From a bacterium (GTDB lineage Bacteria > Patescibacteria > JAEDAM01 > Absconditabacterales > Absconditicoccaceae), in contig JAFTEM010000010.1 of NCBI GenBank assembly GCA_017453665.1, forward strand, positions 1-44,871: DNA of 44,871 bases, read 5' to 3'. The translations under genes were made by a program, and so were the position numbers. This document shows, piece after piece, positions 3,463 to 17,099 of the stretch. Within the stretch, counting starts at the first letter, position 1. Every line of letters begins with the position of its first letter. The notes beneath the pieces are model-generated. The model saw nothing but the letters and a program-made list of their open reading frames with translations, made no database searches and was not told the origin of the DNA.

Positions 3463-5040
3463 CTATTTTATTTCAGCGAAATGCAAGATTACTCAAGCCA
3501 CATTTTGAACATTTGTTATTCTAAATGAGCGACCATCTTCTAATGTAATTTCTCAATGATCTCCGTTTTGTCATCCCATCTCTGGATAAAAAGGTGTTTT
3601 ATCAAAAATAAGGATTTTCTGACCGTTTTCTGCATCTATTTCTTTTAGTAATTTAGCATCTGAGTATTCTAAATTATCGTATCATACGAATGCTGTTGCT
3701 GGGATATTTTCAAGATATTTAGATCGATCAGCTGATTTTTGAAACATTGCTTTTGTGCTTTGTCTTGATTTCTCTTTTGCCTCTTGTAATGCTTTTTCAT
3801 ACCCTTCTAAATCGAGTTCTACTCATTGAGAAAGTGCTATTTCTTTCGTTATTTCTAGAGGGAATCCATAGGTATCATAAAGCATAAAGATTTGTTCTCA
3901 AGAAAGTTTTTTATTTTCTTTTAATAAATCGTTTAAGATTCACTCCCCTTTATGAATTGTTTTTTCAAATTGAGCGATTTCGTTAAGAAGAACTTTTTTG
4001 ATTCTCGCTTCATCGAAGGTTCTTAATCATTTGAATGCGATAAATGCATCATTGATAAATTGTTCTAACTCTTCACTTGTAAGTTTTTTAAGGAGAATGA
4101 GGTTATAATAACATCTTCTAATAATCATTCTTAATACATATCATGCTCATACGTTTGATGGAGTTAATCCGTCATTAATAAGCATAAATGCTGTTCTTAG
4201 ATGATCAGCAACAATCCTCATTTTTCTTTCATTTGATTGATAAGGAAGTGCTGTTGTTTTTTCTAGGAGAGAAATAAAAGGAGCAAAGAGATCGGTTTCA
4301 TAAATACTCTCTTTTCTTTGGAGCACCTTACATAACCTCTCAAATCCCATACCTGTATCTACATTATGGTGTGCTAGTTTAGAAAAGTTTCCCTTTTCGT
4401 CTCTATAAAATTCCATAAACACGTTGTTTCGGATTTCCATCCAGTTATCTTCATCGCTTTTTACATTTGATCACTCTGTTGGAAAGTCTGATGGTCCAAC
4501 CCAATAAAAGATTTCTGTATCAGGTCAACATGGTCATACAGGACCAGGACTCCATCGATTATGCTTTTCTGACATGTATGAAATTCTTTCTGCTGGGATT
4601 CCTGCTTTTTGCCATGCAGCAGAAGCGACTTCATCTCTTGGCGCATCGCTATTTCCTTCAAAGACTGTCACTGCTAATTTTTTAGGATCAAATCAAAGTT
4701 CATTAACGAGGAATTCATAACTTCGTTGAATAGCTTCGTTTTTAAAATAGTCTCATAATGACCAATTTCCCATCATTTCAAAAAAGGTAAGATGAAAACT
4801 ATCCCCTACTTCATCGATATCTACGGTTCTTACACATTTTTGGATATTACATAATCTATGTCCTAATGGATGTTCTTTCCCTGCTAAATAAGGAATAAGT
4901 GGTTGCATTCATGCTACATTAAAAAGAGCTGTTGATTCCTTATCTGCTATTAAAGAAGCTTCTGGAAGATTAACGTGATTTTTGGTTTCCCAGAACTTAA
5001 TCCAGTTTTCTCTAATTTCGTTTGAAGTTAAATTTAACAT
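3463..5040 (-). CDS. alaS: Alanyl-tRNA synthetase, short form lacking editing and C-Ala domains
   Basis: This protein of 525 residues charges tRNA-Ala. The N-terminus matches the class II AlaRS core: an alanine-specific opening ([12 protein letters not shown]...), motif 2 region ([32 protein letters not shown]), [15 protein letters not shown] and the motif 3 region (DTGMGFERL). The tRNA-recognition helices follow, then the start of the beta-barrel ([17 protein letters not shown]). It stops at TAG directly before the place where bacterial AlaRS has the HxxxH editing site, and no HSATH-like motif follows in any frame of the minus strand. Bacterial AlaRS is usually about 870 residues. UGA encodes conserved Gly such as those in GPVGPCG. 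The gene lies 11 bases downstream of the next minus-strand gene and is probably cotranscribed with it. Confidence 0.93.
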
Positions 5041-12213: not shown

Positions 12214-15200
12214 ATGGCAAGTAACCTTGAACGTATGAATGATATCCTTGAATTTTGGGCTAAGGATAACACTTTTCAAAGATCTATTGATGAAAGGTCT
12301 GAAAAAATGAATTATAGATTTTTTGATTGACCTCCTTTTGCTAGTGGAACGCCACACTATGGACATCTTCTAGCAGGAAGTATTAAAGATGTTATTCCTA
12401 GATACAGAACTATGAGAGGATACAAAGTAAAGAGAAAACGATGATGGGACTGTCATGGATTACCTGTTGAAAAAGCTGTAGAAAAAGCGTTAGGAATTGA
12501 TTGAAAAAAAGATATTGAACAAAAGATTGGTATCGAAACTTTTGTTGAAAAATGTAGAGCTTATGTAAATCAGACTAATGCTGATTGGAAATGGTTTGTT
12601 GACCATACAGGAAGATGGGCTGATATTACTAATCCTTATTTCACTATGGATTTAGATTTTATGGAAACCGTTATTTGGTGTTTTTCTAATATCTATAATC
12701 AAAATAAAGTGTATAAAGGATTTAAAGTACAAGGATATTGTCCAAGTTGTGCTACCCCACTTGCTAATAACGAGATTTCTGATGGATATGAAGATAGACA
12801 AGATATGGCTATTACCATAAAATTTGCACACCAAGCAGTTCGTCCTGAACAATACGAATCTTCTGAAGATGGATTTGTTGATGTTGTTGCTGGAGTTATT
12901 AAAAATCAAGAATGATGATATCTTATGATTCATCATGTTAAAGAAAATGTGTGGTTTTTCCCTTGAGGAAAGGTAAATAAAGGAGAAAGTTTAGAAGATG
13001 CTACCAAAAGAGAATTAAAAGAAGAGGTAGGTATCAATGTTGAAAATTGTAAATATCTTTGAGCTATTAAAATTATTCATCTTTGAAAACCTTGTAGAGT
13101 ACACTGGTTTGAAATAGCAACACATGATACTCCTTGTATTCAAGAAACAGCTAAACACAATGCTCTAGAATGGGTAAAAGAAGAAAGCGCTGAAAATAGT
13201 CTATGATTTGTATTAAATATTAAATGAACGATTATTGATAATGAAGAGGAATTATGTCATGATTTTATTGATTTTCATCTTTTCAAAAACGTTCTTAATC
13301 CAGAAGAAAAATGACTTATTGAATGAAAGTTTAATTTTCTTGCTTGGACAACAACGCCTTGGACACTTCCAAGTAATATGTTCTTAGCTGTCGGTGCTGA
13401 TATCAATTATGTAACCTTATATGATCCTGATAGTAAAGAATACTATGTTATGGCTGAGAATCTCGTAAAAAAATACTATAAGTCAGCTGATCAGTATACT
13501 CTTATCTATAAACAAAAAGGTAAAGAGTTAGAAAATGTGACATACAAACCATTATTTGATTATATTCTTAATTCAAAAATTGCTGATGAATATAAAAAAG
13601 AATTCTTTCATATTCTTTTAGCAGATTTTGTTAGTATTGAAGATGGTACTGGTATCGTACATATCGCTCCTACGTTCTGAGAAGACGACTTTAGAGTTGT
13701 TGCTAATAGACTTTGAGAACAAAAAGCGTTAGAATGGTTATTTATGCCTGTTGATGATTATGGATGCTTTGATGAACAAGTACCTGATTATCAAGGAATA
13801 AAAGTCTTTGATGTAAATAAACCAGTAATGGATTTACTTAAAGAAAAGAAAATTACTGTTAAGGCTGAATCTATAAAGCACTCTTATCCTCATTGTTGGA
13901 GGTGTCATTCTCCTCTTATTTATAAAGCCATGTCGAGTTGGTTTATTAAAGAGAAAGAGATGAATGCTGAGAGTTATAAATATGCTGAACATATTAATTT
14001 TGTACCTGAAACTGTTAAAAATAGATTTGTTAATGGACTTCAACAAGCTCCTGATTGGAATGTTGCAAGAAACAGGTATTGGTGATCACCTCTTCCTATT
14101 TGGCAGAATGTAGAAGATAGTGAAGACCGTTTTTCTCTTTGAAGTTTAGAAGAAATTTATCAATTAACAAGAACTGGATCTCTTAATCTTACTAAGAATA
14201 TCTTTGTTAGACACTGAAAAACTGATTATAATGAAAAACATCATTTTGATGGATTATGAGTTTCTGTTCTCACAGAAGAGGGGGAAGATCAAGCTAATGC
14301 ATTAGTAACTAAATTATGAAAACATCTTAAAGAAAAAGATGAACTTGTTTTTGTTATTTCTCCATTACAAAGAGCTTGGCAAACAATTAAGCCTACGCTT
14401 ATAACTCTTTTCTGAGAAGATAGAATTATGGAAGCTGAAAAGAAGTATTATGAGATTCGAGAAGACTATAAAAAAGCGTATAATGATTGAAGTCTACCAA
14501 CAATATTGCAAGGAACTGATGAACAGAATATTTTCAAAATTGATGAACAAATATTTGTTGATTGGAGAGCTACTGAACATTATTCTCCTAAGAATCAAGA
14601 TGTGTATTCTGCTTGTGATAGACTTAATTGGACTAATTATGATCAAGCTATCGGAATTGAGGGAGAAAGTTTAAATGTTGCTTGTAAAAGAGTCGCTAAT
14701 GCTGTAAAATATTGGAATAAAGCATATGCAACAAAGACTATTGTTTGGTCTTCTCATAATGATAGTATTGCTATGGCTAGAAAAGCCTTCCGTGACTTTG
14801 ATTATGGAACGTATAGAAAAAAGTATCTTACTAAACATGCTGATTTTGTAGTTCACTATCGAGATAATGATAGAGCTACTGAAGTTGATCTTCATAAGCC
14901 TTATGTTGATAATTATCGGGGAGTAAAAAATTGAAAGACCTACAAAAGAATTCCTGAGGTAATGGATTGTTGGTTTGAATCTGGTTCTATGCCTTTTGGA
15001 CAAGACCATTATTTAGGAGATAATGAGCATTGTGATTTAACCTACCCTGCAGACTTTATTGCTGAGGGACTTGATCAAACAAGATGATGGTTTAGATCAC
15101 TTCATGTTGTAGGACATGCTATTAAAGGAACTAATGCATTTAAAAATGTTATTGTTAATGGACTTGTCTTAGCTGAAGACTGAAAGAAGATGTCTAAGAG

Positions 15201-16377
15201 TCTTCATAATTATCCTGATCCTAAAGGACTTATTGAAAAGCGATGAGGTGATGCATTTAGGCTTTATACCTTATCTTCTCCTGTTGTAAGAGCTGAACCT
15301 ATGAAGTTTTCAGAAAGGGGAGTTGAACAAATGTTTAAGGATTTTAATATTCCTCTAGAGAATGTATATAAGTTTTTTGAGACTTATGCTAAGATTGACT
15401 GATGGAAAGCTGATGGAACAGAAGTATATCTTATGAGGCATGCTGATGCTGTTTCACAAAGTCATGATGTTGAACTTTCTGAGGAAGGAAAAGCTATGCT
15501 TTTATCTGATGAAACAAGAGAAAAGATTGTTAGACTTAACCCTGATATCATCATTCATACCCCTCTTTTAAGAAGTAAAGAAACCGCTGAAACGCTTAGA
15601 AATATTCTTAAGGAAACAACTTGAAAAGTAGTTGATATTCAACAAGTAAGACCAGATAATAATGAAGATGCTTCTAAAGGATACATGAAAAAACTTTATG
15701 ATGAGATTCTTAGAGAACATCAAGGACAAAAGATTTTGATTGTTGGACATGCTTATACCTTAAGAACACTTCGAGAAGTACTTTATGAAAACAATAATGA
15801 AGATTATACTTATAGTGAAGTTGAAAGAGAAGAAGGGTTACAACCTTTAGAAGTTGTTAAGCTTCCTACTTATCAAATTGCTAATGAATTAGATAAATGG
15901 ATATTAGCTGAGCTTAATCAAACAGTTAAAAGTGTTGATGAAGCACTTGAGAGATGCGAAATTGATTGAGCTATTAAAAATTGAATCGATTTTGTAGAAA
16001 AACTTACTAACTGGTATCTTAGAAGAAGTAGAAGAAGATTCTGGGGGGCAGAGATGACTACTGATAAGTATTCTGCATATGCTACATTATTTGAGGTATT
16101 AAGAACTTATCTTAAGGTTATGGCTCCATTTACTCCTTTTATTACTGAAGAAATTTGGCAGAAATTAAATGGATTTATTGAAAATAAAGATGCTAATATT
16201 AAATCTGATTCACTTCATTTAAAGATGTGGCCTTTTGCAAGTAATCAATATATTGATGCACAACTCATGGAAGAAATTGCTACAGTAAGAAAAGCTATCA
16301 AACTTGCACTCTTTATTAGATCTAAGAATAAAATTGCGGTTAAACAACCTCTTCAATCATTAGAAATTAAATTATAA
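12214..16377 (+). CDS. ileS: Isoleucyl-tRNA synthetase with inserted Nudix and two histidine-phosphatase domains
   Basis: This is one open frame of 1,387 residues. The class Ia IleRS body (type 2-like) is clear: [13 protein letters not shown] with H48-Y-G-H51, [37 protein letters not shown] from residue 375, HIAPTFGEDDF of the editing domain, [45 protein letters not shown] and KMSKS at 992-996. Three foreign domains interrupt it. Residues about 215-370 hold a complete Nudix box (GX5EX7REUXEEXGU, G252 to about 274). Residues about 660-880 form a histidine phosphatase with R666-H667-G668, SPLQRA (R720) and SSHND (H848). Residues about 1065-1190 form a second one with R1075-H1076-A1077, HTPLLRS (R1120) and GHA (H1179). 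The synthetase resumes after each insert. It ends shortly after [13 protein letters not shown], lacking roughly the last 150-200 residues of ordinary IleRS. The stop overlaps the ATG of sufC. Confidence 0.96.
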
Positions 16378-17099
16378 TGTTGGAAATTAAAGATTTATCG
16401 GTTAATGTTTGAGAAAAAGAAATTTTAAAAAAAATTTCCTTCGTTTTTGAGGATGGGAAAAATTATTGTATTCTTGGGAAAAATGGATCTTGAAAATCTT
16501 CACTTGCTATGACGATTGCGGGGAGCCCTAAATATCAAATCTCTTCCTGAGATATTTTGCTTGATTGAGTTTCGTTGACGTCCCTTTCGGCTGATGAGAG
16601 AAGTAAAAAATGAGTTTTTCTTAGTTTTCAAAATATTCCTGAGATTCCTTGAGTTAAACTCTTTGAATTTTTGAAAGCGATTTATGATGTAAGACAAGAA
16701 ACTCCTAGTTCATTTATGGGATTTAAAAAGATTATTGAACCATTAATTGAAGAGCTTTGATTAGATAAAGAGTTTCTTTGGAGGGATTTGAATGTCTGAT
16801 TTAGCTGAGGAGAAAAAAGAAAAATTGAGATTTTACAGATTAAGTTATTAAAACCTAAAATTATTATTCTTGATGAAATTGATAGTTGACTAGATGTGAA
16901 TGCGGTCAGGCAAACCTCTGAACTTTTAAAATCAATCAATTCTGAGGAGAATAGTTTTATTATTATCACTCATTTGTTTGATATGTTAGAAGGACTTCCT
17001 ATTGAATGAGTTGTCGTTTTGGAGCAAGGAAAAATTGGTGAAATTTGAGATAAACAATTGATGAATAAAATCAAAAAGGAAGGGTTTTGAGGGAACTAG
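16377..17099 (+). CDS. sufC: Fe-S cluster assembly ATPase SufC
   Basis: The 240-residue ABC-type ATPase is the motor of the SufBCD scaffold for Fe-S clusters. Walker A GKNGSGKSS spans 34-42 with UGA for Gly39. The Q-loop region reads FLSFQNIPEIPGVKLFEFL, close to the SufC-specific EIPGV element. The signature is FSGGEKRKIEILQ, Walker B is IIILDEIDSGLD, and the switch His is in IIITHLF. FSGGEKKR plus DEIDSGLD is the SufC hallmark rather than that of transport ATPases. Its ATG shares one base with the ileS stop (TAATG), implying translational coupling. No sufB or sufD lies next to it in this window, which is unusual. Confidence 0.9.

Follow-up and report, generated by a model that had tools for sequence, protein, structure and literature searches.

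The stretch of DNA analysed here, called the window below, is 44,871 nucleotides of contig JAFTEM010000010.1 from a member of the Absconditabacterales (Patescibacteria). Its plus strand at 12214-16377 encodes an isoleucyl-tRNA synthetase (IleRS) in which three other enzyme domains are nested: a Nudix domain and two histidine phosphatases (HPs), HP1 and HP2. From sequence comparison, we lean towards the reading that this IleRS is a carrier of autonomous small hydrolases which were captured in frame, and that HP2 has partly turned structural. The enzymes at the core of translation and repair are generally regarded as resistant to domain shuffling within their catalytic bodies. Here an essential synthetase holds three other enzymes, related lineages have up to four nested domains, and the same families are found in six kinds of housekeeping protein.

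The window gene encodes an IleRS with three inserts

The host bacterium has a tiny genome and an altered genetic code. Under NCBI table 25, positions 12214-16377 form a single open frame of 1387 codons, 29 of them TGA translated as glycine. With table 11, the plus strand of this interval breaks up into frames of which those with at least 100 amino acids have only 100-142. The frame is common to relatives at 98%, 86% and 76% identity, which rules out an assembly artefact or a frameshift. A first-pass annotation, made from the letters alone, had claimed one uninterrupted frame containing a complete IleRS catalytic and editing body and, at three surface positions, three foreign domains with apparently intact key residues. 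The frame and its coordinates were exactly as it described, and the product has 1387 amino acids. A Pfam search of the table 25 translation, which it had proposed, matched tRNA-synt_1 (399 bits), Anticodon_1 (122 bits), His_Phos_1 (96 bits, four stretches) and NUDIX (58 bits), all above their cut-offs. NUDIX matches within the first insert, and the strongest of the His_Phos_1 stretches lies within the second. The NCBIfam ileS model (TIGR00392) scored 800 bits against a cut-off of 621, and the HIGH and KMSKS motifs and the CP1 editing domain are present, as expected of an IleRS.

Alignment with yeast cytosolic IleRS gave core blocks at residues 10-204, 372-654, 891-1056 and 1223-1385. The claim of a complete catalytic and editing body is supported. 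The gaps between the blocks are the inserts, at about residues 205-371, 655-890 and 1057-1222. The first part of the core (residues 1-204; 12214-12825) contains the catalytic N-half with a HIGH-type motif, HYGH (residues 48-51), and the start of CP1. Insert A (residues 205-371; 12826-13326) lies in CP1 and carries the Nudix domain at about residues 218-345. The second part of the core (residues 372-654; 13327-14175) contains the CP1 editing domain and the catalytic domain, and is followed by insert B (residues 655-890; 14176-14883), which is HP1. The third part (residues 891-1062; 14884-15399) has KMSKS at residues 992-996. Insert C (residues ~1063-1215; 15400-15858) is HP2, which is weakly SixA-like; the NCBIfam SixA model covers residues 1070-1194. 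The anticodon-binding domain (residues 1216-1387; 15859-16374) ends the protein. In type-2 IleRS, a C-terminal region of about 200 amino acids follows this domain and is DUF5915 in relatives. The usual region is absent from the window protein, in which the tail is 8 amino acids compared to a median of 203 and Pfam finds no PF19302. The open reading frame at 16377-17099 encodes an ABC ATPase and is therefore not a split-off C-terminal piece of IleRS.

A passage of PMC8629427 reports that Absconditabacteria read CGA and CGG as tryptophan. R266, R666, R720, R1075 and R1120 are all encoded by AGA or AGG, thus a possible recoding of CGA and CGG leaves these catalytic arginines untouched. The window gene has six CGA/CGG codons, at residues 76, 749, 883, 902, 1010 and 1187. 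At five of them, the database translations of seven relatives show no residue other than Trp or Arg in the aligned column, and this is consistent with the reassignment which that passage of PMC8629427 reports.

Catalytic residues and selection in the three inserts

The Nudix domain contains G252, E258, R266, E267, E270 and E271, and its GX5EX7REUXEE box (residues 252-272; 12967-13029) is complete and strict. The box and the NUDIX profile place it in the Nudix superfamily. HP1 contains R666, H667, R720 and H848, plus E788 and E818. HP2 contains R1075, H1076, R1120 and H1179. Every residue named in the first-pass annotation is as stated, and the structure prediction which it had suggested gave confident models, with a predicted local distance difference test score of 94.3 for insert B. 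HP1 has the RH(G) motif, the second arginine, the acid, the final histidine and the fold match of histidine phosphatase branch 1. R666, H667, R720, E818 and H848 are found in all 72 site-B rows, and E or D is at position 788 in 70 of them. This residue count is the actual test, because the site-B HP profile was built from the very rows that it matched. L124, a duplicate of L001, was kept in this count and in the Nudix-box counts, and L257, a duplicate of L213, in the box listing.

Selection was measured between the window gene and L207, its nearest genome locus. Nonsynonymous (dN) and synonymous (dS) divergences were 0.04 and 1.26 for the core, 0.16 and 1.14 for the Nudix domain, 0.17 and 1.66 for HP1, and 0.13 and 1.28 for HP2. 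Relative to the core, the inserts diverge at roughly three- to fourfold the rate, and the ratios are rough because dS is near saturation. All three inserts and the core are under purifying selection.

Among solved structures, the Nudix domain is nearest to MutT, 8-oxo-dGTPase and NudG-type proteins. Its solved relatives also include the RNA pyrophosphohydrolase RppH, and Ndx1 (1vc8), which we take to be an ApnA hydrolase, was matched at E 1.9e-6. A further search for solved chains, which covered mainly the IleRS core, listed neither Nudix nor HP chains in its 50 rows and is uninformative on those domains. NCBIfam scores were 52 bits for NudG, 47 for MutT, 43 for RppH and 23.6 for MutT1 (NF052459; cut-off 475), all below cut-off, as was every other functional model listed for the inserts. 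HP1 is nearest to phosphoserine phosphatase and to PGM/CobC relatives. HP2 is nearest to a mixed set which includes SixA. It has the RH and the final histidine, and with 36.4 bits against the TIGR00249 cut-off of 74.5 it is not assigned as a SixA phosphohistidine phosphatase.

The architecture is fixed in a lineage in which HP2 decays

The first-pass annotation had left it open whether this architecture occurs in related genomes. Our survey answers that it is not unique to this genome. The 120 relatives listed (of 6502 matches, with 7994 candidates scored) all have tRNA-synt_1, NUDIX and His_Phos_1 at 62-98% identity, and the only organism name among them is 'candidate division SR1 bacterium' (P0066). 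The whole architecture is common to relatives at 98%, 86%, 76%, 62-66% and 51% identity, so a whole lineage has it as a fixed feature.

The window IleRS belongs to a clade with short tails. All 20 of its untruncated rows have inserts at A and C, and 19 have one at B. The exception is L238, and its sister L237 (support 100) has the B insert, so a clean loss is the simplest reading. Insert C is kept in 20 of 20 rows, and HP2 lacks one or more catalytic residues in six of them (L001, P0054, P0066, L210, L212 and L213). In the five most degraded forms of HP2, the insert is 102-126 amino acids. P0043 was counted as intact since its final histidine is present by eye (GHAYT). C inserts also occur in relatives which retain the C-terminal region (L239, L248, L249, L254 and L258), and their phosphatases form one clade with the window HP2 (19 rows, support 99). 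The window HP1 lies in a 42-row clade of B-site phosphatases (support 84). These separate B-site and C-site clades rule out a recent tandem duplication as the origin of HP1 and HP2.

Inserts enter six places of IleRS in Patescibacteria

Six insertion places were defined on the IleRS alignment. A lies at the root of CP1, E within the editing domain, B behind the catalytic N-half, B2 just downstream of B and ahead of CWFES, D behind CWFES, and C ahead of the anticodon domain. In the window these hold the Nudix domain (A), HP1 (B) and HP2 (C). The final set has 197 IleRS rows after removal of L124, L257 and L183; the C count is on 196 rows, with the truncated L003 left out. Inserts were found in 28 rows at A, 2 at E, 86 at B, 16 at B2, 4 at D and 40 of 196 at C. 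These fractions are not prevalences, as the rows were gathered largely for carrying inserts. By parsimony on a FastTree tree, the minimum numbers of changes are 7, 1, 16, 6, 4 and 4 at A, E, B, B2, D and C, respectively.

The content of a place varies. Site A holds Nudix in 28 of the 30 rows of the box listing. The other two are L178 with Ser_hydrolase and L255 with a MuF_C-like domain. B2 holds HP, Ser_hydrolase (L239; weak in L258) or DUF559 (L251). D holds HP (L174, L258) or GNAT (L252, L255), and C holds HP or HP remnants. The editing-domain inserts are Nudix in L178 and a CYTH-like domain in L176. The latter has no Pfam match above cut-off and owes its label to a PDB match alone, to the CYTH protein NE1496 (2fbl, 3typ; E 2e-8). 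Across Patescibacteria, the modules are combined in many ways, and each has been gained and lost independently.

Several single proteins deserve mention. L239 is an IleRS of 1726 amino acids with Nudix, HP, Ser_hydrolase and a further HP. L258 (1795 amino acids) has three HPs and a weak Ser_hydrolase match, and L255 (1805 amino acids) has the MuF_C-like domain and GNAT. In L251, a DUF559 domain (100 bits) sits at B2 where relatives hold a phosphatase or a serine hydrolase. We take DUF559 to be an endonuclease; if it is, a hint at the route of capture is possible.

A model of HP1 with its IleRS flanks matched in 60 of 379 genomes drawn from the phylum Patescibacteria. These are flanked HP1 matches and not proven IleRS: one is ValRS (G370) and another was not read as IleRS (G354). 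The flanked Nudix model matched in 3 of the 379 genomes; it was built for site A from five sequences and is blind to Nudix elsewhere in IleRS, as in L178. The flanked HP1 model gave no match in two control samples, 149 and 64 genomes from the phyla to which a Spirochaetes and a Gemmatimonadetes record belong; such blanks say little in the absence of a positive control, but the model did match in Patescibacteria. The thresholds of the flanked-model and control searches were set by us. No inserts were found in the 62 rows of L012-L080 other than L016, whose records are not titled Patescibacteria. HP-bearing IleRS are found in named lineages such as Paceibacterota, Yonathbacteria, Nomurabacteria, Niyogibacteria and Berkelbacteria. 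An oddity of SR1 alone is ruled out by the nested inserts found across the Patescibacteria samples.

Nested domains occur in other housekeeping proteins

The class sample comprised 60 genomes of the class containing the genome of L001 and overlaps with the phylum sample; the threshold of one of its searches was likewise our own choice. In it, 54 of 107 HP matches lay within frames of at least 1000 amino acids (39 proteins in 30 genomes). Reading 37 of these 39 frames gave 25 IleRS, 10 ValRS, a UvrB that holds both HP and Ser_hydrolase, and an AlaRS that holds HP. IleRS and ValRS were separated by sequence motifs. HP match counts, those of the class sample included, are too low for genomes which use TGA as a sense codon. 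In G001, PF00300 found no match at 1e-5 or 1e-12 while its IleRS carries HP1, apparently due to the TGA codons, and for this reason we do not conclude that such genomes lack stand-alone HPs. Nested Ser_hydrolase was found in LeuRS (seven loci), UvrC (L332), UvrB (L282) and a ValRS-like frame (L189, judged to be ValRS by eye). L337 is a LeuRS with two NUDIX stretches; Nudix counts in large-frame hosts are at least the values given. Nesting is therefore a habit of these genomes and not a property of IleRS, with IleRS and ValRS as favoured hosts of HP.

In one genome (G387), nested HP, Ser_hydrolase and Nudix domains are spread over IleRS (L240), LeuRS (L337), UvrB (L282) and UvrC (L332). The class II AlaRS L285 (G400) has a nested histidine phosphatase which groups with the ValRS phosphatases. 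HP copies within one genome are only 22-41% identical, which rules out recent transposition between genes. Flanking repeats were looked for in the window gene, and nothing outstanding was found.

Discussion

In the reading that we favour, the three hydrolases of this type-2-like IleRS are separate domains, each captured in frame by a surface loop of its own. The synthetase, an essential protein, would act mainly as a carrier which holds the hydrolases and is expressed together with them. Of these, HP1 is predicted to be an active, autonomous phosphomonoesterase (PspA/CobC/PGM superfamily) and the Nudix domain an active, autonomous pyrophosphohydrolase (MutT/NudG-like), both working on small phosphorylated metabolites. 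HP2 may be drifting from an enzyme to a structural part, perhaps replacing the lost C-terminal tRNA-binding domain; it may have become structurally needed after that loss. The loss of this region beside a decaying phosphatase offers a direct and testable case of an enzyme becoming a structural part.

Several observations weigh against this reading. The short-tail rows form one clade, so the 20 of 20 with insert C do not represent 20 independent events. Long-tail relatives also have C inserts of the same HP clade, and HP2 therefore most simply predates the loss of the C-terminal region. Support for the deep branches of the HP tree is weak. Of the 28 site-A Nudix rows, only 19 have a strict box: in five rows the first Glu is replaced by Asp and the Arg by Lys, in L001 and its duplicate L124 by Phe and Lys, and the spacing is one residue longer in L120 and L184. 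The rare architectures of L178, L251, L255, L282 and L285 each rest on a single metagenome-assembled genome. Finally, the bias to HP and to the related editing synthetases IleRS, ValRS and LeuRS is stronger than expected of random carriers.

This host bias is what would be expected if the nested enzymes worked in cis on substrates arising at the synthetase. The Nudix domain might act on Ap4A or misformed nucleotides, or the Nudix domain and then HP1 might unblock the tRNA 3' end for charging by removing pyrophosphate or phosphate. The conserved catalytic residues of HP1 and the presence of RppH among the solved relatives of the Nudix domain fit such a role, and PMC11559606 describes toxSAS toxins which pyrophosphorylate the tRNA 3'-CCA. 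We consider clean-up in cis unlikely. In most IleRS with an HP, site A holds no Nudix domain (at our own thresholds, the flanked HP1 model matched in 60 of 379 genomes and the flanked Nudix model in 3), and the Nudix scores favour NudG and MutT over RppH and MutT1. The same families are nested in UvrB and UvrC, which speaks against a host-specific substrate. The first-pass annotation had suggested built-in clean-up or signalling chemistry on adenylylated or phosphorylated nucleotides, with Ap4A as a known side product of such synthetases. A clean-up dedicated to Ap4A is not supported: the Nudix domain is nearest to MutT, 8-oxo-dGTPase and NudG with functional models below cut-off, the same families are nested in ValRS, LeuRS, AlaRS, UvrB and UvrC, and HP2 has lost catalytic residues in 6 of the 20 clade rows. 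The many combinations of modules, gained and lost one by one, also argue against an obligatory three-step pathway. A role in Ap4A metabolism is possible and has no specific support here.

Non-adaptive or selfish insertion, by which in-frame domains are tolerated in the loops of essential genes and kept because precise removal is rare, would explain why many unrelated domain types (DUF559 and MuF_C-like among them) occupy the same places, why HP2 decays in place and is not deleted, and why the Nudix box varies. We regard it as quite improbable. All 72 rows keep the HP1 site residues, dN lies far below dS, and the clean absence of HP1 from L238 beside its sister L237 indicates that clean loss is possible. 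The divergent copies within one genome give no sign of recent movement of a selfish element, nor does the window gene have outstanding flanking repeats. In the histidine phosphatase superfamily, the RH and the final histidine hold the phosphate. A sensor or regulatory device, in which the nested domains of regulator-poor cells adjust aminoacylation on binding nucleotides or phosphorylated metabolites, would suit inserts at the CP1 root, before CWFES and at the junction to the anticodon domain and the persistence of dead HP2 forms as ligand-binding pseudo-enzymes, but it is very improbable, as most dead forms lack the RH and the final histidine and have probably lost ligand binding too.

The carrier reading can be extended, tentatively and with more doubt than conviction, to a class of nested enzymes in Patescibacteria. 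A small set of such enzymes, hydrolases as well as transferases (histidine phosphatase, serine hydrolase of the RBBP9/YdeN type, Nudix, GNAT, CYTH-like and DUF559), would repeatedly enter conserved loops of essential proteins (IleRS, ValRS, LeuRS, AlaRS, UvrB and UvrC) in frame, and there stay active, be swapped, be stacked (up to four per IleRS) or be exapted. The essential proteins would serve as the chassis of a minimal proteome, possibly through a specific capture process (DNA uptake or endonuclease-guided homing). Should the nested enzymes be active, essential proteins have become carriers in Patescibacteria, the annotation of their small genomes would change, and some apparently missing phosphatases and hydrolases may hide inside synthetases.

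The window protein itself is a synthetase with extra domains, which is a known kind; a phylum-wide habit of nesting would be a new kind should enzymatic activity be demonstrated. Databases already list these Pfam combinations. NCBIfam has an exception model for IleRS with an N-acetyltransferase domain, ileS_w_GNAT (NF040702), so annotation models already provide for an added enzyme domain in IleRS, and GNAT is also found in the IleRS L252 and L255. The window protein has a different set of domains, no GNAT, and a score of 302.5 bits against the cut-off of 1999, so it does not belong to that family. It differs from type-2 IleRS (yeast cytosolic IleRS, Priestia IleRS2) and from Thermus IleRS in the three nested enzymes and, in its clade, in the missing C-terminal region. 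Inteins and homing elements are also in-frame occupants of conserved genes. An intein is ruled out here, since no splicing (Hint) domain is among the 7 Pfam families found in the window protein at E up to 1, and the nested domains appear to stay in the protein. Mycobacterial MutT1, as described in passages of PMC11784022, likewise has Nudix and an RHG histidine phosphatase in one chain. It is a stand-alone enzyme of two domains and not nested in a synthetase. Nudix is next to HP in MutT1, whereas about 280 IleRS residues separate the Nudix domain and HP1 in the window protein. The lineage-specific insertions of RNA polymerase (BEAN/HABAS; PMC11515920) are similar in being polyphyletic domain insertions in core machinery; those insertional domains belong to RNA polymerase. 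In the open-access literature searched, we found no description of a nested phosphatase or Nudix domain in IleRS or in synthetases of Patescibacteria, and nothing for IleRS with histidine phosphatase or for IleRS with candidate phyla radiation and fusion. The synthetase passages of PMC6744442 do not mention nested domains.

Two minor observations concern other genes. In four genomes of the class, EPSP synthase has a C-terminal Nudix domain (L338-L341; L338 by profile scan and the rest by eye). In the window, an AlaRS-type gene on the minus strand (3463-5040), which gave no editing-domain match at E up to 1e-3, encodes just 525 amino acids and spans the PF01411 catalytic region.

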